From: Capitulum mitella
Lineage: Eukaryota; Arthropoda; Thecostraca; Pollicipedomorpha; Pollicipedidae
Assembly: GCA_030062745.1 (NCBI GenBank)
Contig: CP099839.1
Span: forward strand, 9,608,118 to 9,672,117
Reading direction: 5' to 3'
Length of the DNA stretch: 64,000 bases
Shown: piece after piece, positions 25,257 to 48,200 of the stretch
Layout of the letters: each line of letters starts with the position of its first letter
Position numbering within the stretch: the stretch's first letter is position 1
Notes under the pieces: generated by a model
Databases searched by the model: none
Told to the model about the DNA's origin: nothing
What the model saw: only the letters and a program-made list of their open reading frames with translations
Position numbers and translations under genes: made by a program

Positions 25257-26700
25257 GCGGAGCCGGCTCGCTCACGATGGACCGCTGAGCGAATGGGTTT
25301 GCCCCGTGGCGGACCATGGAGGGGGTCCGCCCGTGCCAGGATGGCCGAACGATGCTCAGGGCAGCTGTCTGGGCCGGGCCGGGAGCCACGCATTCTGACG
25401 ATTCCGTCCTGCCTCCGGTAGGTCTTTCCGACGAGGCCAGAGTTTGAGATCTCGCCACGAACTAACTTTGGCAGGGGCTTTTGGTTTAATGTTTAATGAC
25501 CCTGCTAGGCGGGACGTCTGCAGGTGCGCGTTCGGTGGACCGGTCAAACGAGCCGTACACGTTTTAATGTGATGGTGCTATCCCGCTTCAGATCTCTGTC
25601 GCCGTCAGGCTGCCGGCGACTGGTGCTTGTTGCTTGCATTCTTCGTAGGCTGTGACTAGGAGCAGGCTGCTTCGTAACCGTGACGAGCTTAGGTCAGAGA
25701 CCCCACTAGGGCTTGCAGTCAGTAGATCCCCCTTGCAGCACTGGTGTATGGCCCGTACGTGGTTGGTGAAGGGCTTTCAGGGACGTGTTTCATTCGTGCC
25801 CGAGGTTACTGAGGCGCGAAATAATGTAAACCCATGGTGTGAGGACGACACTGTGCCTTGAAATGACTGTTCAAACACACCCAGTGAAGCACCGGGGGAA
25901 CGGATACAATAATACATGCGTTTATTAATAGCATATTATCACACGGATACGTACAGTGATGCAAGTCGGCGAGAAACGTGGATCACATGGAAACATGAGC
26001 ATGAGGTGACACTGAGGGGGGAGCGACGCACATCCGTGCCGATGAGCGCAGTCGATACATGGGCGAAGCGAGTACTGGGTGAGATATATACAGGCGACGA
26101 GGACGGGCTCAGCTGTTTCGCGTCGTTCCCGGACGTATCGGGCCGACGCGCCAAATAGGTCTACTATCGTGTCCGCGGCGAGGTCAAAGCTCCGGCGACA
26201 GTGACGATCGCCCTGCGGACCAGCTGGAGGACGGGGCTTCAAGACCCCAAAACGGAGGACTGTTCCGCTCAGCTCTGCCGACGTGAGAGCAGAGCGTCAG
26301 TAAACCGCACCAGAAAACCAGCGCCACTGCAGATTTCGTGAACGGACGTGCACACGGACCCAGTCTTAGAAGGTGGGTGGATGACACGGAGGCAGGGCTA
26401 TCGGAGTAGACGACAGGCAGCGCGGCGTCATGGACCAGACGACCCTCCCGGCCCACAGCAGGGGCAATCCAGAAGCGTACCAAGAGAACCATCGACATGC
26501 GTAGTGCGCCACCATGGGACAATCGCAACCCTCGCATCCAGACAATCGCCTGTAACTTCCTGTTCTTTGAAAGACGGCGCAGCGTTCGACCCTGACTGTC
26601 GCACTCCCCATATCAACCATTCTTTAAAAAAGCATTCTGTACTCGCGGATGAATCCAGCCGACGAACCGTTCCTGCGCTGGTCACTGACCGGGAATCCAC
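25257..26700. other. Region between ASPHD and the domino 3' end
   Basis: ASPHD (plus) and domino (minus) converge across 25257-28054. A minus-strand AATAAA (TTTATT on plus) lies at 25921-25926. It is the only such signal I found downstream of the long domino stop, and if used would give a 3' UTR of about 2.1 kb. No convincing plus-strand signal for ASPHD was seen. Open reading frames here are unrecognised. Confidence 0.35.
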
Positions 26701-26704
26701 AAAC

Positions 26705-27210
26705 GCGAACTGGCAGGTCGCCTATTTGCATGGCTTACGGTCGGTCGCACTAAAGGATAAGACAAGCCGTGATTTACTCTGTGGGACGGGCGGCACGCCG
26801 ATGGAGGTCTGAAAGTCTGCCCTGACCGGCGGCCGCGTCCGACGTCCACACCTCCCACGCCGGGCGCCATTGTCATGCCACAACGTACCGCAGTCGTACT
26901 GGATCAGCCGCCGCTCGGGGAACTGAGTCGTCATGGACCTGGCGGACATGCGCTGGCGATCGGATGAAGGTTGGCGCGCGGCGACAGCTCCGACACCAGC
27001 CGCAGCCGCCGCTGGCGTTCCGCCTCACGCGCGGCAGGATTTCCGGACGGCACACGCTCGCCATGTTAGACTCGTGCCTGTTGGCAGACGTGGCCTAACG
27101 TCACCGCACGTCACGCGAATCAACGAACAAGCGCCATTCACGCACCGTCAGACATTGTGTGTAATCAAACCAGCTCAGAGAATGTAGGTAAAAATAGGAT
27201 CATCACATCG
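26705..27210 (-). pseudogene. Partial duplicate of domino exon 16 and its introns
   Basis: This matches 36425-36945 in the same orientation. The shared part covers the 3' piece of exon 16, its donor (TGCG|GTACGT), downstream intron sequence, and, more weakly, sequence upstream of the exon including the word CAGCTCAGAGAATGTAGGTA. The protein piece [12 protein letters not shown] is retained. Just upstream the copy carries small insertions and deletions that break the frame, and it lacks the acceptor and the N-terminal part of the exon ([11 protein letters not shown]). It therefore cannot encode the helicase segment. It lies about 0.8-1.3 kb past the domino long-form stop. Confidence 0.8.
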
Positions 27211-27554
27211 CCGTTCGCAGGTCTGGTGACTGTTTTTAAAAGCAATGTTTTCCCTTAATCTCTCACCTGTTACACATACGCCGCATCCGATCGTGCTGGT
27301 GCAGTTAGCCAATCGCCACAGGTCACCGAAAACACTGGCACCAATCGAAGACTCAACCTGCAAGATTCCGGCAGCGGTTACATACGCCGGGTCGTCAGAT
27401 TCCTGCAGCGGCTACGTGCGCCGGAGCTTACATTTCCAACTCCCGGGGTCCGTCCGAGATCGTGGACGCTGCAATACTTACAGAATCCGATATGTCGATA
27501 TGTGTTAATTCGGATCTGTTTGCTCTCATACTGAAGATTCCCACGCCACTGTTC

Positions 27555-27690
27555 CCCACAGTTCTAGAGGGTGATACACCGCGAGACGTGCACACCTGCT
27601 GGTCGTGAGCGTTCATCTGGCACTGTTGCAAAAGCGGCGCCGGCAGGAGCGGCCGGCACTGCTGATCGTCCGTGCGGAAACGAGCCACAG
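27555..27690 (-). repeat. Near-identical copy of a domino intron 13 segment
   Basis: About 125 bases match 38012-38140 almost base for base (for example TTCTAGAGGGTGATACACCG and GCGTTCATCTGGCACTGTTG in both), while flanking sequence on both sides does not match. In domino the original lies just downstream, in gene direction, of exon 13 (38180-38325). Exons 14 and 15, which in domino lie between this segment and exon 16, are missing from the copy region. Confidence 0.8.
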
Positions 27691-28054: not shown

Positions 28055-30256
28055 CTACGGCTCCGGCGGCGTGGACGCCGGGCTGGGTCGGTCCGGCGCC
28101 GAGCCGGACACCGTCCGCAGCCGCATCGTGTAGGGCGAGCCGCGCGCTGCCGCCGCCGCCGCCGCCGCCGCCGGGGAGCCGGCAGAGCTGATCGGCGGCT
28201 TCAGGTGCGTCAGCGCTACGGTGGCTGTCTGGAACAGGGAGCCGTGTGGCAGTACTGCAACCACGCGCCGACATTTGACCTCTTGTTTAGTCACGAGCCG
28301 CCCCCGCGGGAAAAGTGATTCGAGGTCACCGCTCCTGCAAGAGCCATGCTTGAACCTACGGAATATACCTAGGTGCAAACTCAACGTTTTGACGCACAAT
28401 CGTGCTAATCTATTACATTGCAACTTCACACTCATGTGCTATTTACAGAGAAGCATGTTCGACTAAACCCGCAGGCCGAAGTCATGCGCGACACGGGTCC
28501 AGACGTAAGCTCTAAGACATACCGATGGGCTCAACCCATCGATGCGAAACACCGCGGCAACGTTTTATCTCCCAGCCTCACCTGCAGGAGCTGCTGTTGT
28601 TGCTGTTGCTGCTGCGAGGTCTGCGGCTGGGACGGCTGCGTCTGCTGGACCGTCTGCGGCTGCTGCGGCGGCGGCTGCTGGGCGGCCGGCTGCGTGACGG
28701 TGGCGGAGGCGGTGGCCGCCGCCGGCTGCACCACCTGGACGGCGGCCGGCCGCGCCTGCTGCAGCGTGGCCAGCGGCCGCGCCACGCCGGCAGCCGGGAA
28801 GGCGCCGCCGCAGGCCGACACCACCTGGATCGTCTGCTTGATCGGGTGGTGGCCGCTCGGGATGACGCGCGCCTGCAGCTGCGACGGCGAGGCGCGCGCG
28901 CTGCTGCCCGCCGGCGGCGGCACCTTGATCACGTCGCGGCCCATCACCTGCTGGATCTGCTGCACGGTCACCGTGGTCGGCAGCTGCTTCTGGCCCTGCA
29001 CGATCTGCACCGCCGACAGCTGCGTCGGCACCCGCTTGCCGGCCACCTGGGCCAGCTGCGTCGGCCCGGCCAGTTTGCGCTGCGGCGTGATGAGCTGCTT
29101 CTGCAGCGCCAGCTGGCGGATGTGCTGCTGCGAGGCGGTGGTCACCTGTTGGCGGCGGACGGATTGTGGACGATGAGCGGCGCCGGCCGGGTTCAGGCGT
29201 CCGCCGGCCGTCGACCAGCGTCCGACAAATGCCTCAGGTCGGCAACGGTGCCCGCCTGTCGCCGTCGATTCCTGAACCGCACAACACGCGTGCTTCACGC
29301 GTAAAAAGCGCCGTCACGCAAAAGCGCAAGCTCCATCGTAATCTTTCAAAGTGCCGCCGTGAGGCCTAGCAATACACCAGCGCCAGCGTTGCCTCACCCC
29401 GGCCAAGGCAGCGGGCCGGGAGCAGACGACGCGATCCGCGGGCACCACCGCCACGTCCAGTACTCACCTTGGCGGGCGTGCCGGCGCGCATATGCGGCAG
29501 CGTGACGCCGGCCATGCTGATGGCCGTCACGGGGATGGTGACCGTCTGCGTGGCCCCGCTCGTCGACGGGGACGACTGGCCGGCGCGCGCCGCCGCGCTC
29601 TGCACCTGCGCCAGGAACTGCGGCATCAGCTGCGCCGACTGCATCTGCGACAGCGGCGGCTTCTGCTTGAGGATGGCAGCCATCTCGGACTCGGTCATGG
29701 TGCGCGCGGCCACCATCTGCTTGCCGGCCGCCTGCTTGAGGATGCGCACCTGGGTGCGCGCCTGCGCCTGCGTGACCGGCACGGCCGCCATGCCGGTCAC
29801 CGTGCCGAGCGAGGTGACGGCCACCTGCACCTTCTGCGGGCCGGCCATGGCCAGCGCCGCCGACGGCGAGCCGCCGCCCGACACCGTGGTGGCCACCTGC
29901 AGCCGCTTCAGCGGGTCCAGCGTCAGCTTCTGGCGCAGCATCGTCTGTTGCTTCAGCACCTGCAGTTGGCTAGGGGTCAGCGACTTCTGCGTCAGCGTCT
30001 GGATCGGGATGGAGGTGCCGAGGCCGGCCTTGGCGGCGGCCGACGACGCCACCAGGCCGCTGGAGACGAACCGCTGCGCCACCTGGGCGGCCGTCAGGCT
30101 GGAGACGGAGACGACAGCGCCGGCCGAGGTGACGGCCACGGCGCCGACCCGGGCCGGGACCAGCGGCGGCCGCGCCGTCACCAGGCCGCTGGCCGAGGCC
30201 GCGCCGCCGGCCGCCGCCACCTGCACCTTCTGCAGCCGCGACAGCTGTTCGGCCGA
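28055..30256 (-). CDS. dom: Domino Q-rich C-terminus (exons 29468-30256, 28582-29145, 28055-28228)
   Basis: Low-complexity A/Q/V/T-rich sequence as in EP400: [50 protein letters not shown], a run of eight Q before LLQ (about 28588-28616), then a poly-A tract and the final [14 protein letters not shown]. The stop TAG is at 28057-28055. The poly-Q and poly-A runs are short triplet repeats that may vary in length. Confidence 0.85.
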
Positions 30257-33200
30257 CTGCGGGCAGACAGCCAGCACCGGGCGGCGTCAGGCGTTGGCCA
30301 CCGGCAGGAGCAAACAGGGCATTTGACAGGTTTGTGACATACATGACTGCAGAATAACTCATCAGAATGCAGAAATACCGGCCGCAGAATAACTGCATCA
30401 AGAGCTCGCTCATGACTAACACTTAACGGCCGAAGGCGTGGAACTGACCGAAACGTCGCGTTATGACACACCGGCAGAGGACAGAATTTATGGCACAAAT
30501 AATATCGAAGTTCACACGGAGTCGACACTGGCACATTTCTATGTCAAAAGAAGTGCTGCATGACGCGAACGTCATAAAAAGTCCGATGCCAAACATGGCC
30601 TGCACAGTTAATCTACGTCCATCGGATTTAACAGTCCACCAACTCTTGAGTGGTGCATACGTTAGCCTTCGTACTGAACTAGGGCAACCTTACTATGTGC
30701 CGAAGGCGATGCAACGTATATCCAATCAGAAATTAGCATGAGCAGTAAAGCATTCGCGACATTTCCAAAGTAAAGAGATATTATTTGTTTGTTTCCTGCG
30801 CTCCTCTCAACGCAACGAAACAAACACCGCCGGCCTTCCCGGCTGCGGCAGCGACGTCTCTCACCGATTTCTGTTTCTCCTTGGCGATGCGCGTGGCCTT
30901 GTTGGCGGCCACCTCGACGGGCGTCAACGGCGCGTCGTAATCGATGCCCGAGTCGGCCAGGACGGCTGCGTGCTTCGGATTCCGGTTGGCCGGCGGCAGC
31001 AGCGACGGCCGCGTGGTAGGCGCCCGTTTGTTGGCGATCGACTTCATGTTCTCGAAGCGCATGATGAAGAGCTGGCTGAAGCCCTGGTTCTTGTCCTGCA
31101 TGGCCAGCTGGGAGGTGCGCAGCGGCCGGCCGGCCTTGGCCGTCGGCAGGCCCAGCTTGCCCGGGCCCAGCTTGTGCTTCTTTGTCTTCTTGGGGCTGGG
31201 GTCGTAGACGACCTTGCCCTCCTCGCGCGGCTGCACCACGTTCTCGTAGCGCAGCCGGCACTGTTTGGGCGAGCGGTACGCGCGGCTCACGTGGTTCACC
31301 AGGTCCGAGACCAGGTCCCAGTTGGGCGTGTGCGCCGGCGACACCACCGTCAGGTTCAGCGGCATCTCCAACACGTTCTTGATCGCCTGCGGAAGGACGG
31401 CAGTGGTCACGCGGGACGCGCAGGCGGGGGCGCCGCGGCAGCCGGGCGCATCAGGTATTTGTGTCGCTTCGGGTGGTTTAAAGCACAGAGTCCAGCGTTG
31501 ACGGCAGCGTCAGAGTACTCTAGTTTCGGCCTTTTATGTCATCACTGAGCACGGGACGATCTGAACACAATCGGACTCCAGCGGCGGCCGGCGGGGCGCG
31601 ACAACTGACCTGCAGCAGGGCCCAGTCCTCGTGCACCATCCAATCGGGAGCGTGTTCGTCCAGACCGGCCTTGGAGGCGAGCAGGGCCGGCTTGGCGCTG
31701 GGCAGGCTGAGCGTGCCCGGACTGAAGAGGGTGCGCCGCTGCTGCAGCCGCAGGTCGCGTCGCATCTTCAGCGCCGCCGGCGACATCCGGTTGAAGAGCG
31801 AGCGCGGCGCGAAGCCGGCCTCCTCCCGCTTCACCTTCATCGGCTTCTTCATGAGCGGCGGCGCGCCGGACTGCGACGCTGCGGGCGGAGGGCGGACGGA
31901 ACGGTCAGAGAACAGGGACTGGCCAACAGCCACCGCCGGTAGCACGGGAACCGCTGTCGGCCGGGACAGCTCACCCCACACCGCACAACACGCAATCCGC
32001 GGAGGCCCAGAATCTAACTACACCAAGAACATCTTCAAGACAAAGAGGAAACTATCTTCAAGACAAAGAGGAAACTATGTGGCCAGCAGCAGAAAGTGGC
32101 ACGCATACTCGCCGAAACAAGTGTCCCGCCATTACCGCAGACTGCGGCAAACTAAGGGCAGGCCGCCGTCGGCGAGGCTCGCTGGTCGGCAACTCGGGCC
32201 ACTCACGCAGCACGACGCCCGGCTCGGTCTTGACGCGGCGCGGCGCCTCCTTCTTGACGAACACGGGCGGCAGCTGCGCCTCCGTCATGGGTACCGTGTC
32301 GTACAGCAGGCTGTCTACCTGCTCCATGTACACGTCGTTGTCGTCGCGTGGCGGCGTCGGCGGGGCCCAGATCTGCCGGCAGCGAGAGGAGTGGGTGAAG
32401 TTTACCAAGTAATCGGCGCACAGGTGCTGGGCGGAGGCCCGACATGTCGCTGATGGTCGTTTAAGTGGACCGGCAGCGCACAGAGGCGTCTGCGACCATT
32501 CCAACAAGTCCTGTACATTTACAGGCCTAATGCTGACACCACTGTCCCGAAACGTGAGTCATGCAGAAAATCAAAATGTAAAATAGCTCACCGGCATCAT
32601 CTGATTTCCGCCGTTCTCGGAAATCCACACCTAAGGGACAGAAGAGTGATTAGATCGCTGACGATTATCAGACATCCCCTTTCTGATGCTGGTCAAACGT
32701 AGCGACCGAAATAACCCTCAACACCAACAGTGCTCCGGTCCCAGTGATGACAATTTGCACTTCGGTCCGCTTGGGCAATGAACAGCGAATAACTACTTGA
32801 CATTCGACAGGGATAACTGGCTTTTTTTACATCACAACGAAACATTACAGCACAAAATAAAAACAATAGAACCGCAACAATCAATAGTCTTAAAGTCGTC
32901 CTAGTTTGTGCAAAAGATCTGGCCAAGAACGCCCATGATTGGCGCCTACGGACCATTGATGGTCACTCGGTGGCCCAGGCACGAGCTCAACGTGCCGCAC
33001 CACTGCCATCAATCAACGCGCTGACAGCGTGAGCCCTCGGCAACGCCTTGACTGGCCCGTGCGACGGTAACAGCGACCACAATGCCGTTCCGTCACGGAC
33101 CAAGTCCCATTTTCTAGCGCGCCGAGCGTACGCTCTGGCCGCAAGGATTTGCCGTCCCGCGCCTACCCCGGCCCGCTACCGTAGCGGCAAGGCTCAGGTC

Positions 33201-36200
33201 CTGGCGGGGACGCCAGGGCGGGCGCCCCTGGCCGCCGCGCCGCCCTCAGCGGGCGGGGGGCGGCCGGTCCCGAGCGGGCCCAGTTTCAGCGTGCGCTCAC
33301 GGGCCTGCTGGCGTGCTGTCTGTCCAGGGGTCTGACATGATGGTGCCACGGGCGGCGCCTCTCCCCCCGCCCCTGACACACCAGCAGCCGCGCCGAGAGA
33401 GGACACCAAAACTGCACCCCCCGGGACAGACAGGTCCACACCAACAGGCTCCGGGGCGCACAGCTTTATTCGTATCAACGACGCGATCATGACAGCACAT
33501 AAAATCGCCGACTCCAAAATGGAAGCGATCGGTATCACACTAAACGATGGACCTCACCGCGGAGGGGAATACGAGCGAGTAATGCCTGAGAACTGGCAAC
33601 AGCGGGAATTCATTCCGATGGGCGTTTGGCGGACGGGACGGACGGGGCGCGGCTGGCCGGCCGGCGGCTAGTTCTCGACCACTCGCCGCGGCCGGCCGCC
33701 GCCCCGTTTGGCGCCGCGCCGCGACACTGAGGTGGGCCCGTTTTTCACGGCCGCCTCGGGCCCCCGGCCGGGCAGCAGCGGGTTCGAGTCCAGCGTCCAC
33801 AGGTTGATGTCCACCGTGCTGCGCGAGCGCGTTTTGGGCGACTCCAGCTGGTCGTCGATGCGCCGCAGCGTGACGCGGCAGGCGGGCGTGCGGCGCAGCT
33901 CGGCGGCCGCCGCCGGCGCGCGCACCTGGCTCGTCTCGTCCGCCTCGTAGGTGAGTGACTCGGCGTCCGAGAGCTCCGAGTCGCCCTCCTGCTGCCGCAT
34001 CGCCTGCTGGTGGCCCGCCTCCCACTCGCGCTTCCGGGCGTCGATCTCGGCGGCGGCCCGCTCGGCCTCCCGCTGCCACGCGTCGTCCGTCTCCTCGACG
34101 AACGTCATGGCCCAGCGCTCGATCGGCGTCAGCTGCGGGGCACGGCGAGAGGTCAGGGCTCGGCCGGCGCCGCCGTCGGGCACGGTGCGCCACAGCTCCG
34201 GCGTCAGTGAAGGCTCAAGTCATTGGCTTCATAAAATGTAGGTAAATCGGCATCATATACCAACAATGTTCCCACTTCAGTAACACTTGCAGGAGAATAC
34301 ACTCGAATTTTTGATCGCCTCGGCAAGACAAAAACCAGCGCAGCACGATGAACAGTTCTAGCGTCCGCATCCGTCTCCCTCCGACGTCGGGCGGCCGGTC
34401 CAATGGGCCGTGCTCACCTGGTTGACCAGCTGTCGGACCTCGAGCTCTGCGCGGGACACCTCCTCTTGGTCCCCGCCCTCCTCCAGCGGGATTGTCTCGT
34501 CGAACTCGGCCATCTCGGCGTCTGCTTCGGCGCGGGCCGTGCAGGCGGCGCGGGCGTCCGTTTCGTCCTCGGCCGCCGCCAGCGCCGCCTCGAACGCCAC
34601 CTCGGCAGACTTGTCGCTGATGGGCGCCGCAGACGACGGCGGAGACACCTGGCGGCCGTACAGGGTCCGGTCAAACGGCTGCGACCGACGCCACGGGCAA
34701 ACGTAGCCAAAAAGATCGCGATCAGCTGGAAATGGCGAAATAGTTTACAGTCCACATCCAACCTGCTCCACACTCCTACAAAACGCAGACCTTTTGACCA
34801 GTAGCTCTGTCCACGGCACAGAGCAGAATCGAGTACAGCAACATGATACAAGGCAATAAAGCTCTTCACTAATCGCTTACCTCGGTCTTCTCAGGCTTCC
34901 GCTTGAGGACCTCGGCCATGCGTTTGTTGGCGTCATCTTCGCGCATGTCCACGTTAAAGAGATCCTGCAGCGTGGCCTTCTTGAAGAATGCCGTGGTGAA
35001 GTTGCCGCCCTCTATGGCCAGATCGCCAAGCAGCCGTTTCTGGTTCGCCTTCTTCACAATGTTCTCCTCGATTGTCTTGTCGCTTACCAACCTGACGGAA
35101 GGCAATTCTATAGATTACACTATGTCTGTGGGTTGGTGCCATTATTAAAGTTTCATTACATGCCAATAACGAAGCCCGATGCCGCCTGTAAGTGAATCGA
35201 CCGACCACTCCAGTTCCAACAAGTTTCGGGGAATAGCGGACATAAAAAACTACCCCGTCAAAGAATGTCAAGCTGCATCCGAAGTCGCGGCATCCTTCCC
35301 AGTGCGGCACCCGCACCTGTAGATATGGACGTCTCGCGTCTGACCGATCCTGTGACAACGGTCCTGCGCCTGCGCGTCCATGGTCGGGTTCCAGTCCGAG
35401 TCGTAGAAGATGACCGTGTCGGCTCCCGTCAGGTTCACGCCGATGCCACCCGACCGCGTCGACAGGATGAAGCAGAAGATTCGTTTGTCCGCGTTGAACC
35501 GTTCCATCAGAGCCTGGGAAGACGTTACAGGGGAAGGAGTTACGTTGAGCTGGACAGTTGCAGGACGCCGTTCCGTTCAGCATGGACAGCAACACTCCAA
35601 ATCATACCAATGATTCGAGAACTACGTTCGGTACAAACAGACAACGTGTTAATGTGCGGTGGCGTAACCTATCCAGTGAACACCAAGCAAATGCAAAATA
35701 TCCCCCAAAAGAGCAACACAGATCCACTACTTTAAAGACCACTCCCTCCATAAAACTATGTTCCTAAACGGGAACGTTCGCGTCGGCGCCGAGCCGGCCA
35801 GCGATCGGCCGCCTGTCGGAGCCGCCCTAGCCCCCTCCCCTTCTCGCAGAACAGCACGTGTAGGCGCCGCGGGAGCCGGTCGCGCCAGCCGGCGCCGAGT
35901 ACCGACTCCGGAGCGTGGCCGGCATCAGTCCCGCCCGCGCCGCACGCTGTACCGCCGGTCGTCACCGGGCCGGCCACGCTCAGCCGGCCCGGTAATTTCC
36001 GGCGGACGGAGATCCGACGGCCCGCCGTACCTGGCGCTGGTCCACGCGTGTCGTGCCGTCCAACCGCAGGTAGATGTGACCGTGGAAGTTGAGGAACTGC
36101 TCCAGGATGTCGAGCATGCGTGTCATCTGGGTGAAAATGAGTACCCGGTGGCCCTCCGACTTCAGCTTGTGCAACAGCCGGTCCATGACCTGCAGCTTGC

Positions 36201-39200
36201 CTGCAATCCAACACATGACCCGTTAATTCCCACAAACCTATGGTCATTTCATCCTGCTATTCCAAACGGAGTCCACAGACTGCCATCACTAACACACATT
36301 ACCACAAGGCTATTATCAAGCGAGAGATGAACATTAAACTATTTCAACACATCCTGTCTTTAGAAACCTTTGACAAAGGAGACCGCAATAAGGACCTAAA
36401 CATTTCCTTTCAGTATGAAAAGCAAACTGTGGCAGGTCGCCTACTTGCGTGGCTTACGGTCGGCCGCACAAGAAACTAAGACACGCCGTGATTTATTCTG
36501 TGGGACGGGCGGCGCGCCGATCCGGGTCTGAGAGTCTGCCCTGACCGGCGGCCGCGTCCCACGTCCACCCCCCCCCCCCATCGGGCGGCACTGCCGTGCC
36601 ACAACGTACCGCAGTCATACTGGATCAGCCGCCGCTCGGGGAACTGAGTCGTCATGGCGCTGGCGATCGGATGGAGGGCGGTGGCGCGCGGCGACAGCTC
36701 CGACACCAGCCGCAGCCGCCGCTGGCGTTCCGCCTCTATCCGCGAAGGAGGCGGGTGGCTCACGTGCAGCAGAATCTCAGGAGCCAACACGCCCGGCGTG
36801 TACACCACGTACCTGCAGACAGGCGCGGCCAGTGTCGGAACGCGCCTACCGTGCCGCCAACGACAATGGCCGGTCGCAGCGTCAGAAACAGGGTGTAATC
36901 ACACCAGCTCAGAGAATGTAGGTAAAAGTAAGCTCATCACTAACACAGCAGGCTGCGGGGTACGGCGGCGCGGCCGCCGTCCGCTTACCTGCTGAGTATA
37001 TCGTGCATCCTGTCCAGCACGTCGGCGACGGTGGGCAGGAGGCGGTCGAGCGCGGCCGTCTGGCGCCAGTAGCGGCGCGCCGCGGCCGGCGCCGTCTGGT
37101 CGGCCGGCGGCGTACAGTGGGCCAGGCCGTTCCAGGCCGGCACGCGGCCGCCGGCGCCGTCCACCACGCGCACCGACTGCACCAGGTCGGCGCCGTAGAT
37201 CGGACACGCCTCGCAGCGTCGCTTGTTGATCCGGTACAGCGACAGCAGCTTCTCCTTCCTCATCATCTTACGCTGCTCCTCCAGCGAGTTCTGTCAGACA
37301 ACGAGGACAATGGTTTCAATATTAACAGCCGTGTTTGGTATACTACACATCGAACGTCCATTCTGGTCAACCCCATATATCCTCATAACTCAGGCTATTA
37401 TGGAAGACAAAAGCTATAAATACAGCATCCGCGACCTCGTGTCAAATCTAGCTCCATCCGTAGGTCCTAAAAGGTAAGGTTCTCAAATCTCGCCAAAAAG
37501 GCAAAAATTATGCCCAAAAAACTAAGGGCTAAACTCATGGTAATCAACTGCAACTTTTAAATAAAAGTGCTAACACAACCTCAATTTCCATTGCCTCATT
37601 CTCACCACTTGCCCACTATGGAGCGACACACTCACATTTCCCACAGCTCTGCTCCCCTGGACCGGGATCGACGGCCGCCCGCAGCGCTTACGATTCTGAA
37701 GATGGAGTGCGGCTTGGCCTGCTGGGGCGCCGGCTGCGGCCGGCCGGGCGACGGCGGCGGCGTGGGCCGGGGCGACAGCAGACTGGTGGGCTGCGGCTGC
37801 TGCGGCATCCGCAGCGGCACCGGCCGCGAGGCAGGCGCGGACTGAGGCGACGCGGCGTTCACCTGTCGACAGCGAGCGGCCGCTCACACCCGCTCAACGG
37901 TGCCGCACACTACACGTACAGATGACCGAGGGCACACATGCAGTAAAACGAACTACAAATCTGGTTAACAAATCACAAACAAAACATATCTTACTTCAAC
38001 AACTGAAGTTTGTTCCCACAGTTCTAGAGGGTGATACACCGCGAGACGTGCACACCTGCTGGCCGTGAGCGTTCATCTGGCACTGTTGCAAAAGCGGCGC
38101 CGGCAGGAGCGGCCGGCGCCGCTGATCGTGAGTGCGGGCCGCGCTGCGCCTGCGGCCGCCGGACCGGACCGGTACGTACCGCCGGCTGGGCGGGAACCGT
38201 GCTGACCAGCGCGTTGGAGGCGGCCGGCCGGGGCGCCGCGGCCGCCGTCAGCCGGGCGAACGCCACGTTTGTGTTGGCCGACAGGCCGCGCGCCGCCAGC
38301 ATCGCCGCCAGAGACTGCGGGTCCACTGCGGACGGGCGGAGTCGGCGTCAGCGGGCGGCACTCGTGTGACGAGCTGGCGGTGCCGGCACCGAACAGGCAG
38401 CGTGTTGCTAGCTAATCCGCTCGGCAGCCCACGAGGCGGCCTCCGAGAAACGAGACAAGCTCATTGATCTCTGAGGCGCGGAAATCACCGCAACCAACGT
38501 GGTAGGTTAGCGGCATGGAGCACCTCAGCACACAGGACTGCAAGAGCTGGTGGCGTCGACCTAAAACACACTTCTAACGCACGTGTCACGTCAGACTGCT
38601 TCCGGTCATACGCAACAGCACAACACCACGCCCACGACGTCGGTCCGTGGATTCACTGAGCGACTGCACAACCAATCGGCACACCCCCATGACCCAGCTC
38701 TGGTCCCGGAGCGGCCCATCCCCACCTCGCGGCCCGGAACGCACCTGCGGCCGGCGCCGGGAGCCGGGCGCCGTTGCCCAGCGGCCGGGTCTGGCCCAGC
38801 ACCGGCTTGCCGGGCTGCAGCACCAGGCCGGCCGACGTGGCGGCCGACACGAGGCGCGGCCCCTGCGGGGTCTGCTGAATCTGCAGCGCCAGCGGGCTGC
38901 CGCCGGCGCCGCTCAGCGACGACAGCGGGATCGTCTTCACCACGCCGCCCTGCACCACCTTGCAGCGCGTAGCCGCGTAGCGGCGCCGGCGCCGGGGCGG
39001 CCGGCGGCGCCGGCAGCCGCGGCACAGCCGGCGCCGGCAGCCGGGGCGGCGGAGCGGCCGGCGCGCCGGCCGCCGGCGGCGTGGCGCGCACGTGCAGCTT
39101 GATGCGACCGGCCGGACAGCGCGGCGGCGGCGGCGGCCGCAGGTCCACCTCCTCGATCAGCCGGCGCGGCGCCTGGAAGCGGCGCGTCCGGTGCGCCGCG

Positions 39201-42200
39201 AACGCCGTCAGCGTCAGCTCCAGGTCGGCCAGCAGCAGGTTCAGGAAGTTCAGGTCCACATGCTGCCAACAGTGATACTGGTCAGGTGCCTGTCCTGGCC
39301 GCCCAATTCTGGCTCGTGCTCGGCATCAAGAACGATGGCGGCAGTGCCAGTGAGTTCATATTCGTATTTCATATTCATGCAGTCAGTCAAGTCACAAGGA
39401 ATATTGTTGGATGCCTAAAACAAATCAGTGATGAAGATATAATACCTGTCAAGTTGCCAAAAGGCTGTCAGTACTGAACATGACCAAGGATGCAATAGAA
39501 TGAAGAAAATGAGACAAACATAATGAACTATCTGGAAAAATATGGCAAGTAGCATTACAAGTTTTACGAATTATACAAGTTCACGGGCAAGGACCGAGTG
39601 GAATTTAGCAAACTTTTCTGCCCGTAAACCTTCGTATTGGTTGACGGGAAACGAGACATGCCCTTTTTGGGTATGAGGTATAAAGATAAAAACTTTCAAA
39701 AGTTGCAATGATATTTTGGCTACCTCGAGCAGTGTTTGTTAACGCATGCAAGAAATATTTCCAGAAGCTTCAAGCTGGTGCATGGAAAATCTCAGCTACC
39801 CATACCAGCATGTCATCCACCGAGGTCGATGGGCCTCACCTTGAACGGGTCGTACTGGATGGCGCTCCAGGCGCAGGAGGCGGTCACGTATTCGAGCCGC
39901 TGCATGCGGAGCGGCGACACGGTCGGCCGCGGCTCGAACATGTCCGGGTGGTTGCACACCTTCCTCAGCTGCATCAGGATGTTGATCACGCTCATGAAGT
40001 TGCCCGTCGCCAGGGTGTCCTTTGTCCTGCAGAAGAAAAAGCAGTTTGTGACGACTATTGAGAAACAGGTCGCGAGCTCAACTAGTGGTAGCCGCTCCCA
40101 TGATACTAGCATCATAACATCACGGAGCATTGTAATTTGCTAAATCCGACTTTAAATGCCACAGCAAAACAGCTGATGGGTACTGAAGCCGTCGACATCG
40201 TACGGCAACATTCATTATTTCCGACTGCCCCATGGGGTCCTAATTGGCGAACATTATAACACACGCCGTAAATGTACCCTCATCGGCGTAGTGCCTGGCA
40301 TGAAGACTTCATTAACTTCCGTTAATGCCACGCAGTGATGATCTCGTAAGATTTTCCGTCACGGAAAAACGCATGCCCAGAGCGGTGAACTTACTTGGTA
40401 CGGCTCATGAACTCGTCGTAGAGGTAGCGCTGGCGTTTGGAGAGCCTGCACATGATGGCATGCTCGTACTTCTTTGGCAGTTGTTTCTCCACCTCGGTCT
40501 TCAGCCGGCGCAGCAGGAACGGCCGCAGCACCTGACCACACGAACACGTGTTCACGAACGCACCAACGCTACGGACGAACTAGGGTGACAACCCATAAGA
40601 GTTAAATGGCAGAAACGACCAGATGGGATGTAGCAAGCCTTTCTGCCCGTAAACCTACGTACTGGTTGACGGGAAACGAGACATGCCCTTTTGGTCTATG
40701 AGGTAAAAGAATCACAACAACTTCTGACAGCTGCAATGATGTTTGGGCTACCTCAAGCATAAACTTTTCGGTTATGCATGCAAATACATACATACGACAA
40801 AACAGCATCAGCAAATAACATGATACAATATGTCGCACACTCACCGGGCAAAATAAAGTCCACAAACTGCCCATTCAGTTTTGCCCGATGCACTTTTCGA
40901 CCGACACGCTTCACATTTCCCAAGTTTAAGGAACATAACCCACAAACCCCAGAGATAGCAAAAAACCAGCTCGCCCACACAGGGAAGTCTCTCTCCAGAC
41001 ATACCTTGTGCAGCCTCTTGATGATGCTCTCGTTGTACTCGGTGTTGCCCTCGATCATGCCCGACACAGGGTTTGAGAACCACTCCTTGAACTCTCGGTG
41101 CGACGCGAACACGTGCGGCATGAGGAAGTGCATCAGTGACCACAGCTCCATCAGGTTGTTCTGCAGCGGCGTTCCAGTCAGTAGCAGCCGCCTGCGGGGA
41201 GCACAGAGCTCGTGTCGGCAGCTGCGGCACAGGCTGAACCGAGCGTCCCCGCTGCCGCTTTGATAAACCGCAGTCTGCGGTCAATCCCTTCAACAGCCAA
41301 CGACAACACCACGTAGCAGGATTTGTGCCCGATCTTCTAGAAGGCACCATGCGAGGATGAACATGGGCCAGCTGGTGAGGGGGACTTGTCTTTTGCACAC
41401 TTTGCACGCCCGAAAAGGCACAGTAGCCGTCACAGGCTCGATCGCGTGCTTTGCTCTATGCACGATGAAACGCAACATGCTCACCAAACATACAGATCCC
41501 CCTCACAGGTGTCAGTTGTAAGTTGCCACCAATGTCACAGACATCACAGATGCCACCTGTCACTTGAGATACAAGTCACCAATTGCAATCAACCACGTCA
41601 AATGCTACTTGTTAATGATACAAAAGCCTAGGTGCCTGAAACATCCCACTTACCTTTGTGACTGAAAATTGAGGAGCAGCTGCCACCGCTGAGACTTGAA
41701 GTTCTTGATGTTCTGAGCCTCGTCCAGGATCAAATACTTCCACTTCTTCCTCCTGAAAGCACCGTGGTCCTGAAGCACCAGCTTGTAGGAAGTGATGCAC
41801 ACATGAAAGAAGTTCTGTTTTGTCCAGCCTGTACGCTTCATGCGTCGCTCCTTCTGCGTGCCGTAGTACGTCAGGATCTTGAAGGCGGGACACCACTTCT
41901 TCATCTCCATCTCCCAGTTGAGCATGACCGAGGTCGGCACGACAATCAGGTGCGGCCCCCATATGCCCTTCTCACAGGCAAGGTGCGCAAGCAGCGCGAT
42001 CGTCTGGATCGTCTTGCCCAGGCCCATCTCGTCGGCCAGGATGCCGTTCAGCTTCTTCTCGTACATGGTCACCAGCCACTCGAGGCCCACGTGCTGGTAC
42101 TCGCGCAGAGAGTGCTTGAGCAGGAAGGGGACCGGCGTCTTGACCGTGGTCGAGGAGAGGGTGTAGCCCTTGGGCTGGAACGTCTCGGCCAGGGCGGCCA

Positions 42201-45200
42201 CGTCCGTGATCTCGGCCGGTCCGGAGAGGTGTTCCGCCTGGAACGGACCGGGGCAGTCACAGTGCGGCCGGAACGTCGCTCCGCGGACACCGAAACGCCC
42301 GCAGCAGTACCGAATCAGGCATGACGGCAACCAAGCGGTACGTCATAGCACGCTCTTGGTACACCAGCTATGTAAAAATCTGCCAGGGGTGTGCCACCCT
42401 GACACTTGAAAGCATCTATAAACGATCTGATGAAATTCTGGCCCAATGGAACCATTTCCGGAGAGAATGTACGACTGCCTATGTAACTGAAGAGCCGTAC
42501 GTCACTGCCACCGTGAAACAGATACAGCATGGTAACTGAGACTTCGGTGTCATACCTTGGTGGCATCTCCTGAATCACTGGCGTTGACATCGAGCAATGA
42601 CTTCAGGCCTATTTCCATTTCGGTCTCTTTCTCATCGTCCTCCTCCTCCTCCTCTTCTGGATCGTCTTCCACGTCACCATCGTCTGAGTCCTCCTCGTCA
42701 GCGGTGCCTTCCTCGTCGTCACCGTCCTCCTCAGACTCGGGCTGCGAGTCATTGGTGGTTGCTGTGGAGCTGCCGCCGCCGTATTTCTTCATAAGCTCGT
42801 CCAGCGGCATCTGTCCCTCATCCTAAAAACAAGCATCACGATGCTAAGACAACATCATTTTTTCGGGTCCTAATCCGATAATCTTACGGTCGTTGAACGT
42901 CACTCTTCATTAATCACTACTTGAGCAATCCAGCAACGTACGACGCAAGCAGTGAAAAACGTCACTAAAAGCCCTGCAGATAAGCATTCTGTGCCCGATC
43001 TTCTAGAAGGCACCATGCGAGGACGAGCACGGGCCAGCTGGTGAGGGGGACTTGTCTTTAGCACACTCTGCACGCCGGAGACAGCACAGCAGCTGTCACA
43101 GGCTCGATCGGGTGCTGGCAGCGCCACTGCGGCTCCAGGCCTGCGCTGACGGCTCACCTCCAGCTGGTTAATTTCCTTGGCATGGTCCTCGTGCTGCTCT
43201 TTGCCCTCCTGCTCGGCAATGGTCTCCTCGTCATCGCTGTCGGCGCCGGACTGCGCCTCGAAGTCGTCGTCCGAAACCACATCCGAGGCCTGAACCACGA
43301 CATAACCGGGTCAGGTGACGCCACCAAAGCGGTGCTTCATGCACTAGCACTAACAATGTGCGACAGAAACGGATGCATTTGAATGACTGAAAACAGGAAA
43401 AAAAATCCGCAGATATGACTTAGCAAATGGCAGCAATTTCATTAAGCACAGTTGCTAGCAATCAAGAACAGATTGTTTCCAGCGTCAGGATCCACCGGCC
43501 TGAGGGACAGGGGCCGATGGGTTTTTTACAACGGATTTTATATCTCCCAAACGTAAAACCACAATGACCAACGAATGTCATCATGGCTTGTTCATTGGGA
43601 ACTTTGGAATGCCTGATGCCCAATGGAGCTGCAAACCATTCGCTGTCCAAGAGAACAAATTTGCTAGCTCAACTGCCTGCATTGCCTTTTGTTCTGATAC
43701 AATACCTGCAGTAAGGCAAGGTACGACGTCTACTACCAGACACATTTCTCATCTCTTCCCTTCCTTTTAGTCCAGGCGAAAAAAGTCTTGAAATTTGACA
43801 GCGAACCAGATACAACAGTTTACATTAAACCAGGAAACAGCAGTGTCTCAAAGCTCACTTTGTAAATCAAGGTAAACCAAAAAACACATACCATACCTCT
43901 TCTGCCTTCCCTGTGGTTGTGTGGTAACAAACTAAGTTTACCATGTTGCTGGCATCGCTCCCGATATGCATTATCATAAACTAAGGACGTAACTGTAATA
44001 CAATGACTCGCTACTTCGCAATCGGAAACCAACACGTCGGACCCGGAAAACGAGCGCTCAGACCATGTCGTGCACGTGAGGTGGTCTTGGCGGCATGTAA
44101 AACTTCCACCACAGCCATGGGACTCCGTGTCTGTCCAAACCTCTCCGAACGTCCGTTCGAAAGCGCCAGCTGCCACTCTGTCGCCCACGTCCAGACCACC
44201 CATCTCTAGTTGAAGCCAAACGTTGAGGCCCATGTTCCGAAACCGATGTCGCATCGATTCGAAACCCAGCGACATAAAACTCTGTCCGGTAAAAAGTGCA
44301 CGAGTCACGCGTGTCGTCAGCGTACCTTGTCCGGCGGACTGACGTCGCGGTGTCGGTTCTCCAAGTAGCCGGCCGGCAGCTGGTTCAGCACGTCGTGCAG
44401 CGAGAGCTCAGATTCGCGCTGCAGCGCGCTGACCTCGGCCGTCGTGTCGTGCTGCTGTAGCTCGCGCTCGGCCCGCGCGATCGTCTCCTCGTCGTCCTCC
44501 GAGCCGGAGTAGGGCTCGAACTCGCCTGGGGGACGCGCAACCGCGCTCTCAAAACCGGCCGGACGAAAATGCTTACAGACAACGACCTTAACTCGGCAAC
44601 GGCGGGGGGGGGGTCGACCACCCGCCTGAGGTTTTTCCGGGACTACGAGAGAACAAACAAGCGCAGCACCACGAAATTTTATGCATTTCTGCTTAGTCAT
44701 TTTTACATCTTATGCCAAAGTTCCGATCTCAGTTCAAGTCATGTGTCTAAGCTAAGTCAGGTCAAGAAGACATACGTCCAAAAGTTTACTGTTGCGTGGC
44801 TTTTTCGGCAAACACGATATGGCAAAATAACTTTCAGGGATTAGAGATCTTGACAGATGCAGTAAATCTGCTCTACGATTCTTCGGAAACCGCCAGGTCA
44901 TTGGCCCACGTCAAGCCCATTTCAAGTCGTCGTCGCTTTTTTCAGAAACTGACGAAATTTCTTACAACATTTAGAGCTTCAGTGAAGCAGACATCCAATG
45001 ACCGTCATTTGGCAAGGTATCCATGACCTCCAACCAGTGACCTCGTCAGGTCACCAATAACAATTATTAGCCAGAATGTACCGTCGTCAAAATCGACAAT
45101 GGATGACTTGGAACGGATAGGAAATAGCAGAACTGATTGTCACGGTTTCGAATAATACCCAGAAGTTCAAAAAGCTTAAAACGGCGTATTTAGGAAATAT

Positions 45201-48200
45201 ACGTACTTCCTCGAATAAAGCTTCCCCAATTGTGTAGACTGATATCTACTGATTTTTCTTCCAAATTTAAGCACGGGAAACCATCATAAGAACCACTAGC
45301 ATCAAGACATATCACTTGACAAAGCCTATGTCGCCAAAATAAAAGAACGTTAAAATACGTTCCGGTCAATTCCATCTCGTGTTCGGCACCGGCACCCGCG
45401 GTGCAGTGGCGTGAATATTGTTGTGTCTTTGACTAAACGTTCGCGCAAAAATGTTAAACAAATAAGAGAAATAAGGCGTGAATCAGCATCTGCGGACTTT
45501 TCCCTATTCGCTGGTGCCTTTATCTAGGTTTTATTAATCACAGCCCTTGAGATGTAGGCCATTTCTCGGCTTCATGTCGTCGGCTATGAGACAATGTGCA
45601 GCGGAAGAAACGGCTTACATATTATTAAAAAATACATAAATAAAAATGACGCCACTTGCGAGTTCAAACTGTCAAGTTAGAAGGGGGTGGTCAACCGCAC
45701 CCCCCCCCGAGCGTGCATGGCGCCAACTGCCAGTTGCACGCGGGTTAACCATCCAGTTTATTGATTTGTACTCAAGCATATGCGATGGGAAGTTAGTAAA
45801 CAGGGCAATCCCAACCAATGTTACACAGACGTACTTTTCATGTTTGCACAAAAACTTTGAAACTGCAGGAGCTAAAAGTGATTTTATAAAGTCAACAATG
45901 GCAATTATGGGCTGCCGGGGCCTTAGACATGGTTATGAAAATAGAGAGCCTTGTTTGTTGAGATGTTTTTTTACCGAAGTGTGCTTAAGTTTTCCGAATT
46001 TAGTAGCTTTATTTTTATCATTCCTAAAGATGGCCTATGGCTGAAATGCTGAGACCATGTTAATGTGTGCATGCATATACATAGATGTTTTTCCACTAAA
46101 GTGTGCTTAAGTTTTCTGAATTTAGTAGCTTTATTTTCATCATTCCTAAAGATGGCCCATGGCTGAGTCCACTCCACTTTTAATTCATCAAATGCATCCC
46201 AATCAGGCATCCAATCAGGTGAGCAGCACTCCATTACAAATAATGTGGGGGACTAATGCAGTGTCACCAAAGTCAGGATCCACCAGTTTGACCAGTCTCA
46301 GAAAGATGGGTTTTAACAAAGGTTATTAATATGCCCCAGAAATAAAAACCACAGAAGCAAACTGCACCACCATGGCTTGTTCACTGGGATATACATACAA
46401 TAAAATTTTGATGCCAGTTAGAGCGAGCAATAACAGTACAACAAGAAAGGGTACTGAATGCAGGCAAAATGCGATCAAACCATTAAACCGACATGATAAC
46501 AAAAACGTACATATGTAAAACAATCTTCTTACAAACAGGCCATGTAAACAATCCATATTTTCCCTGCAAATCCACAACACATATGCGTCGCAAATGAACA
46601 AGTGCAAGACAGGATGAAAAACAAGTGGTCTGTGGCAGCTGAGCTGCAGACAGGGACTTACCGTCAGAGTGCAGCCGGGAGTCGGGAGCCAGGCCGGACG
46701 CCGACGACGCGCGGCTCGGCTGCCCGCTGTTCTGCTGCAGCGCCTCCACAAGCTTCTCACTGTACTTCTCCGTTTGGTTGACGATGTAGTTGAGGTGCTG
46801 GTCCAGCGCCTTCTTCCGCTTCTCGTCCAGCCGCGCTGTGATCTTGAACTCCACCAGCTTCTCGGCATTAGACCAGAACGTCCGAATCTCGCGCGCCACG
46901 AACGACGCCACGCGGCGCAGGTCGCGCTCCTGGTCCTTGACGGCCCGCTCCGCCTGCGCCGCCTTGTCCTGATGGTATTTCTGCACCATGCGCGCGCACT
47001 TGCGCGCCGCCGCCTTCTTCCACTTGCGCTCCTGCGCGAAGTCAGCGGCCAGCCACTGCATCTCCTCCAGGAGATAGTCCCAGTGGGCCTTGACCCGTTT
47101 GGGTTCGGCCACCTTCGGCAGCCGCTTCTCCGACCAAATGCCCTGCTTCCTGAGGTCGCTGATCCGCTGCATGACATGTGCCTCCTGCGGCAGCGCCGGC
47201 AGTACCGTCTCACAATTCCAGTCATACACAGGAAAAGCAGCGTCGCGTGTGACACGTTTCTGAATGACACGGCACTGATCAACAAAGGAAGCCGCCGAGG
47301 CTATGTGACGGTCTGCGAGCAAAACGACAAAGAGGCTTAATAAATCTCCGCCAGCCATTCGCATGTCACCAGTGTCAGGATCCACCAATCTGACCAGTCT
47401 CAGAAAGATGGGTTTTAACAAAGGTCATCGATATGTCCCAGCTATAAGAACCACAGCAGATAGTGCACAACACCATGGCTTGTTCCAAGGGACTGCAGCA
47501 TGCAATGAGGGGCCCAGCGTTCTGGTCACGGTCAGAGCGACGCACCTGTTTGGCCTTCTCGACCATGTGCTCGGTGCCGGGAGGGTGCGAGTCCTGCGAG
47601 GAATGTGAAGAGCCAGCCGCCGGCGCCGAGCCGGAGCCGGAGCCGGAGCCGGAGCCAGGCGGCCGGCCCGGGCCGCGGGACGACGTCGAGCCGCCGCCTG
47701 CCACGCGGAGTCCGGTCATCAGTGCCCGCGAGCGTCAGCCGCGGCCACGGCGCAGACCACCGACGCACAGGGCATGTCACCAGTGTCAGGATCCACCAGT
47801 CAGATGTATCTCCAGAAAGATGGGTTTTAACAAAGGTCATTAACTTCCCCAACCTGTGTGACCACAATGATCACTACAGCATCATTGTGGCTTGTTCTTT
47901 GGGAAAGGCTATCCAAGTGACTTCACCAGGAGCCTCATCTAGCTTAACTGTCATCAAATACTATTAATTTTAATGTTTTAGCCAGCTCCAATGAAAATGC
48001 TGAGACTCAGAAAGCATCAAACTTGCCAAAAGGTACCACAACTGCTCACAGCAGAAAACGTCAGAATAAAACAGCCACAAAACCAGGCTAACTAAAAATG
48101 CAGAGCCATGCATATAAGCATACCTGAAGCTGATACACTGAGATTAAGCTTCTCTTTTACAGCAGGTGGGTGGTGACTTGCAAACACCATTCCATGCCTC

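Follow-up and report, generated by a model that had tools for sequence, protein, structure and literature searches.

A domino-type gene of Capitulum mitella with two readable C-terminal ends at a candidate composite terminal exon

Results

A minus-strand gene with one shared body and two in-frame ends

The 64,000-nucleotide stretch of Capitulum mitella contig CP099839.1 (assembly GCA_030062745.1), hereafter the window, carries on its minus strand a gene of the domino type, that is, of the class of chromatin remodellers to which SRCAP and EP400 belong. The analysis was made at the sequence level on genomic DNA, and window coordinates are used throughout. After a shared body with an HSA domain and an SNF2 ATPase, the gene can be read in two ways from a single exon, exon e. 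Read straight on, the exon continues for 85 codons to a TAG stop that is followed by an AATAAA, giving a short form; spliced from an internal phase 0 donor, it is joined to seven further exons whose product resembles the C terminus of human EP400, giving a long form (Table 1).

The coordinates that an initial annotation of this stretch had given for exon e, the donor, the TAG, the AATAAA 198 nucleotides (nt) past it, and the 13-codon exon f all held. The same was true of its proposal that both routes keep frame, since the long tail has 840 residues and the short tail 85, and the difference of 755 is that between the 2626 and 1871 residues it had assigned to the two products. Its numbering was in part displaced: the fork does lie in the exon it had named, but this is coding exon 22 in the present count rather than exon 21, and the shared part comes to approximately 1827 residues in the present model rather than the implied 1786. 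Residue totals are approximate because the shared part includes the exon at 39262-38745, the halves of which lie in frames one base apart in very GC-rich sequence; the frame difference reflects either a slip in the assembly or a very small intron that went unrecognised.

The shared body placed the gene in the SRCAP/EP400 class. Its HSA domain scored 78.2 bits with the Pfam HSA model, for which the cut-off is 23, and the HSA exon matched SRCAP (190.8 bits) better than EP400 (149.6 bits). When the ATPase exons were compared with PDB chains, the scores were 578.8 bits for SRCAP, 392.9 for SWR1, approximately 316 for EP400, and approximately 304 for INO80, and by these best matches the SNF2 ATPase falls in the SWR1/SRCAP/EP400 branch, ahead of INO80. 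A segment of 50 residues from exon b gave 97.5 bits with SRCAP versus approximately 55 with EP400, and the Pfam Helicase_C model scored 89.8 bits across exons a and b. By sequence similarity, then, the enzyme body (HSA and SNF2 ATPase) appears to be SRCAP-type, with human SRCAP as its closest relative among those compared. For exon d the acceptor tcggtcgcag was picked because it keeps the frame. The LTPIE segment of exon e, taken without the long tail, aligned to EP400 with an E-value of 0.021.

Table 1. Features of the domino-type gene in window coordinates, listed in the direction of transcription.
Feature	Position	Strand	Basis or remark
Shared exon, pre-HSA and HSA domain	46662..47184	-	Pfam HSA; SRCAP above EP400 in bits
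Shared exon, first half of SNF2 ATPase (DEMGLGKT motor)	41654..42237	-	scored jointly with exons 41191-41005 and 40531-40395
Shared exon a, start of helicase C lobe	36031..36200	-	frame and splice sites; Pfam Helicase_C
Shared exon b, helicase C lobe	35317..35513	-	SRCAP match; frame
Shared exon c	34881..35091	-	frame and splice sites
Shared exon d	34418..34678	-	acceptor tcggtcgcag
Exon e, shared part (LTPIERW...ADETSQ)	33926..34132	-	acceptor ccccgcag; LTPIE segment aligns to EP400
Internal 5' splice site, CAG/GTGCGC, phase 0	GT at 33924..33925	-	rank by position weight matrix; local GT scan
Short-form extension, 85 codons	33671..33925	-	codon score
Short-form TAG stop	33668..33670	-	sequence
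AATAAA, putative intronic poly(A) signal	33465..33470	-	198 nt past TAG; then a GT-rich stretch (tgttggtgtgg...tgtctgt)
Long-form intron, 1295 nt	32631..33925	-	spans the end of the short-form reading frame, its stop, and its poly(A) signal; only two of the 28 modelled introns are larger
Exon f, 13 codons, first long-form exon	32592..32630	-	39 nt; phase 0 on both sides; EP400 alignment
Exon g, IWAPPTPP...DDNDVYME, matches EP400 post-motor domain	32207..32372	-	EP400 alignment
Exon h, linker and start of SANT region	31610..31878	-	EP400 alignment
Exon i, SANT and TRRAP-binding hydrophobic domain	30865..31386	-	EP400 alignment; single place in assembly
Exon j, Q/A-rich tail	29468..30256	-	translation
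Exon k, Q-rich tail	28582..29145	-	translation
Exon l, last long-form coding exon, TAG 28057-28055 at its end	28055..28228	-	translation
Nearest AATAAA past the long-form stop	25921..25926	-	2.1 kb away

The internal donor of exon e is ordinary for this gene

The GTGCGC donor had been described in the initial annotation as weak. Of the 28 modelled donors, 23 were scored with a leave-one-out position weight matrix, the donors of the exons labelled e1-e4 and n9 being left out, and the donor at 33926/33925 ranked tenth. Among the 95 GT sites in 32640-34129 it came first, with a score of 6.88 compared to 4.55 for the runner-up at 33558, and the donor of exon b has the similar sequence GTGCGG. Its U1 pairing energy of -6.8 lay below the middle of the set, with six of the 23 donors weaker and one tied. 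The description as weak was therefore not borne out; the donor is ordinary by the standard of this gene, though by U1 pairing energy it may be mildly weak. We therefore see the fork as two reasonable signals in competition, as is general for composite terminal exons, and not as a strong poly(A) signal outcompeting a weak donor.

The 85-codon extension carries coding signal over most of its length

Scored with a codon model trained on the long form of the gene, the extension gave 18.3 bits, against a mean of -51 (standard deviation 13.6) for 3000 dinucleotide shuffles, none of which reached 18.3. The G+C content at its third codon positions was 0.94 versus 0.93 in the rest of the gene. It was also the longest of the 11 donor read-throughs measured, the other ten running for 3-49 codons. 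A stop-free read-through is by itself weak evidence, as 52.5% of these shuffles were likewise free of stops. When the frame was scored in steps of 60 nt, with exon e excluded from training, the values were 8.1, 5.6, and 17.5 down to 33773, then -14.1 and -2.9; approximately 51 of the 85 codons thus carry clear coding signal, and codon constraint is seen on most of the extension. A shorter, SANT-less end of the kind found in DOM-B of Drosophila can in this way be read from the same gene.

The AATAAA at 33470 is the sole occurrence of this hexamer in its intron, and among 2000 shuffles of the remaining intron, 1.2% placed an AATAAA no more than 250 nt from the TAG. Since AATAAA is present in four of the 28 modelled introns (two of these being long and AT-richer, and one having it at 36497), the poly(A) signal alone is not strong evidence, and it is its placement after an in-frame coding end that counts.

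Comparison of the extension with the PDB set returned no match at E <= 10, although that set includes an SRCAP chain of 3230 residues. A pattern scan with the extension gave 25 matches in prokaryote contigs and eight in viral contigs, none of them confirmed; because these collections are prokaryotic and viral, the negative scans say little about the extension. The peptide strings INLWTLD and NLWTLDS had no occurrence in the literature texts searched. The name SRCAP-like, which the initial annotation had applied to the short form, consequently rests on the SRCAP-type body and on the missing SANT domain, and does not extend to the short tail, for which SRCAP similarity was not detectable.

The long tail is collinear with human EP400

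Exon f, with the boundaries tctgtcccttag/GTGTGG...TGCCG/gtgagc at 32630-32592, is in frame with the six exons that follow. Exons f-i with the start of exon j matched EP400 at 279.5 bits (E 4.7e-82), in agreement with the initial reading of this tail as EP400-like. Exons d-h joined to the first part of exon i matched human EP400 as a single stretch (233.6 bits, E 4.2e-68), and this alignment spans the e/f junction with small gaps only. The post-motor segment, the SANT region, and the TRRAP-binding domain all matched EP400, 157 of the 295 covered EP400 residues being identical, as would be expected of an EP400-type C terminus, and the translation of exons j-k has the Q-rich character of such a tail, including a run of eight Q.

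In its available text, a report on the structure of human TIP60 (PMC11995519) names the EP400 residues that hold TRRAP and those by which the post-motor domain packs against the pre-HSA helix. Nine of the 11 TRRAP-contact residues named there are identical in the long tail, the exceptions being H2464, replaced by R, and I2512, replaced by V. In the post-motor domain D2259 and Y2261 are kept and I2260 is replaced by V (two of three identical). The pre-HSA residues R807, K809, and H811 were all kept when the alignment was read by eye; SRCAP has these residues too. As far as the residues given in that text go, their retention indicates that the spliced-on piece carries features of TRRAP binding and of the acetyltransferase-side clamp.

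Because exon f is of phase 0 on both sides, its skipping would keep the frame, and a third form without exon f is possible.

Just past the long-form stop, at 26711-27677, part of the exon at 36812-36610 and neighbouring intron pieces recur as a broken copy with a disrupted frame. This copy matches 36430-36736, 36875-36940, and 38011-38137 at 86-95% identity and, judged by these matches, appears to be a gene fragment duplicated approximately 10 kb downstream.

A single locus found in the assembly

The 477-Mb assembly, which comprises 16 sequences, was searched for copies exon by exon, with only the best candidates being scored. At six ends, belonging to three of the 16 sequences, no TTAGG or TTAGGG arrays were seen, the piece from one of them reading N at either extremity. 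The SANT exon was found at one place. Exon e with its extension was also found at one place (E 7.7e-96), three other matches having E-values of only 0.4-0.7. The ATPase exon scored 445.7 bits at this locus, and the next of 14 other places scored 110 bits. By PDB match this 110-bit place is LSH-type (LSH 185.7 bits versus SRCAP 103.7), and a place on assembly sequence C9 is INO80-type (INO80 114.4 bits versus SRCAP 78.3). Two more of the 14 lie 2-3 kb from two other HSA loci (C5:2596467 and C4:10613459), which we take from their translations to be Brahma-type, and the remaining ten were left untyped. Among the best candidates scored in the 477-Mb assembly neither tail turned up a second time, in a search that a much diverged copy could escape. 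On these matches the present gene appears to have no second SRCAP or EP400 gene beside it and to be the sole domino-type (SRCAP/EP400-class) gene found there, which supports the earlier proposal of one locus with two in-frame ends.

The two presumed Brahma-type HSA loci lie on different chromosomes, each with an SNF2 match 2-3 kb on, and may represent a duplicated Brahma gene.

Other features of the window

Three pairs of interspersed repeats, each 125-150 nt long and 83-90% identical, lie in introns of the domino-type gene (41318-41450 and 42983-43116; 39589-39731 and 40614-40759; 46258-46382 and 47361-47485). Elsewhere in the window, at 16914-17371, a tandem repeat array lies inside the reading frames of a minus-strand gene that is presumably of the ClpB/SKD3 type.

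Discussion

A composite terminal exon as the proposed fork

We consider it probable that the only domino-type gene found in this assembly makes two enzymes by way of a composite terminal exon, and the most likely mechanism is intronic polyadenylation set against a single 5' splice site. Were U1 to define the donor at 33926/33925, the 1295-nt intron would be removed and seven exons added. The long form would thereby gain the EP400-type post-motor segment, the SANT and hydrophobic domains, and the Q-rich tail, and by analogy with Drosophila and human it would enter a NuA4/TIP60-type complex via TRRAP. Were cleavage and polyadenylation at the AATAAA at 33470 to come first, the reading frame would run for the 85 further codons to the TAG, and the resulting SANT-less short form would, by the same analogy, join an SWR1/SRCAP-type complex that loads H2A.Z. 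Production of both RNAs, a race between splicing and polyadenylation, and membership in the two complexes are all inferred here from known systems.

Several observations weigh against this proposal. Both forms are known here from genomic sequence alone. The last 34 codons of the extension are without clear codon signal (-14.1, and -2.9 in the TAG-containing step); the steps past the TAG scored from -5.3 to -35.3, and the first of them, at -14.5, is comparable to the -14.1 before the TAG. Frame 0 was the best of the three in every step to the TAG, but also in some steps beyond it. No relative of the extension was found in the PDB at E <= 10 or in the prokaryote and viral contigs. The shared segment of exons d and e matched only EP400 chains, and not SRCAP, at the thresholds used. 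On the long tail, the Pfam Myb/SANT models stayed below their curated cut-offs (best 18.7 versus 27 bits), so that the SANT call rests on similarity to EP400. Finally, no AATAAA or ATTAAA lies within 2.1 kb of the long-form stop at 28055, leaving the 3' end of the long form itself uncertain.

Some of these points would fit an alternative in which only the EP400-tailed long form is made in meaningful amount, and the extension is an old or rare end with a codon bias that dates from recent coding use. The restriction to genomic sequence, the ordinary strength of the donor, the lack of clear codon signal in the last 34 codons, and the want of a relative in the collections searched are all in keeping with it. 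Set against these are the uninterrupted frame of 85 codons, the strong overall codon bias, and the stop, with the intron's one AATAAA lying 198 nt past it. A long form by itself would furthermore leave the assembly with no known SANT-less ATPase of the SRCAP/SWR1 type, the ATPase search having given no near match. We regard this alternative as unlikely.

It is considerably less probable that the extension belongs to an alternative internal exon that uses a second donor beyond 33926. The coding character of the extension would suit such an exon, and there are GT sites past the TAG, the best of them being the runner-up at 33558. Of the ten highest-scoring GT sites (95 in all), however, only the donor itself precedes the TAG, and an alternative internal exon would therefore stop in frame anyway. 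We give equally little credence to the two tails being two genes in a row, with the exons from 32630 to 28055 under their own promoter. A stop and a poly(A) signal do lie between the two halves, but exon f keeps the phase set by the internal donor, the alignment of the joined product to EP400 takes in both sides of the junction in a single stretch, and human EP400 is one protein with both halves. Least credible is an RNA switch in which the splice site is masked by a predicted hairpin (GUGCG paired with CGCAC) formed over the donor, shifting the balance to the short form. At +/-150 nt the donor does have the lowest predicted accessibility of the 23 (0.15). At +/-50 nt, however, three donors fall below it in accessibility, and at +/-100 nt one does. 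The strength of the local fold is also no more than expected from composition (z-score 0.18, 108 of 200 shuffles folding as well), and the hairpin was rejected as evidence.

The candidate composite terminal exon places the fork at a single nucleotide, where the cis signals for either outcome can be seen, and it adds a further species in which a single locus apparently covers the work that vertebrates split between SRCAP and EP400. A wider proposition, that these animals choose between SWR1 and NuA4 at a single composite terminal exon, through a race of one 5' splice site against one intronic poly(A) signal, is speculative and we put it forward with some doubt. If it were true, and the layout were the switch conserved in arthropods, general changes in U1, in cleavage factors, and in elongation rate would act directly on the ratio between complexes that load H2A.Z and complexes that acetylate H4. 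If the fork were to recur across arthropods and beyond at this same place, following the LTPIE exon and accompanied by an intronic poly(A) signal, the isoform route would be old, and the two-gene state of vertebrates and the one-gene state of arthropods could then be ordered in time.

Comparison with known systems

Vertebrates divide the two roles between SRCAP and EP400, and SRCAP, like the short form here, is not known to carry SANT. The HSA and ATPase regions of the present gene are closest to human SRCAP. The short form differs from that protein in its tail, which has no detectable similarity, and in its length of approximately 1.9 thousand residues compared to 3230. With human EP400, as found in the TIP60 complex, the gene has in common the post-motor segment, the SANT region, and the hydrophobic domain, most of the named TRRAP contacts being kept, whereas its motor is closer to that of SRCAP.

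The likeness to Drosophila domino that the initial annotation had drawn is right in so far as the available text of a domino study (PMC7239659) describes that gene. According to this text, DOM-A, with SANT and Q-rich regions, belongs to a NuA4-like complex and DOM-B to an SWR1-like complex, the two proteins being identical to residue 2008; the end of DOM-A was tagged with guide RNAs against exon 14, and that of DOM-B with guide RNAs against exon 11. In Drosophila as in the present gene model, then, one gene combines a common HSA and SNF2 body with a long SANT/Q-rich form and a short form without these regions, and the short form ends upstream of the long form (exon 11 versus 14 in domino). The short tails differ in size, that of DOM-B being approximately 490 residues, as inferred from residue 2008 and from residues named up to 2497, compared to 85 here.

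At least two C-terminal isoforms are reported in the same text (PMC7239659) for the orthologues in honeybee, jewel wasp, jumping ant, red flour beetle, and house spider, and it is suggested there that the two-isoform mode may be widespread in Arthropoda; the likeness of these genes to the present one comes from that report and not from tail sequence. Four predicted isoforms appear in the available part of a paper on Aedes p400 (PMC7142294). Because isoform pairs are, by that domino text, already reported in bee, wasp, ant, beetle, and spider, the novelty of the present case is smaller than the initial annotation implied. The exon layout of this switch was described in no title or abstract start among the matches listed in the literature, and we do not claim the layout as unpublished. 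The Capitulum mitella gene is a further member of the known domino-type arrangement, one in which the fork is visible at base resolution.

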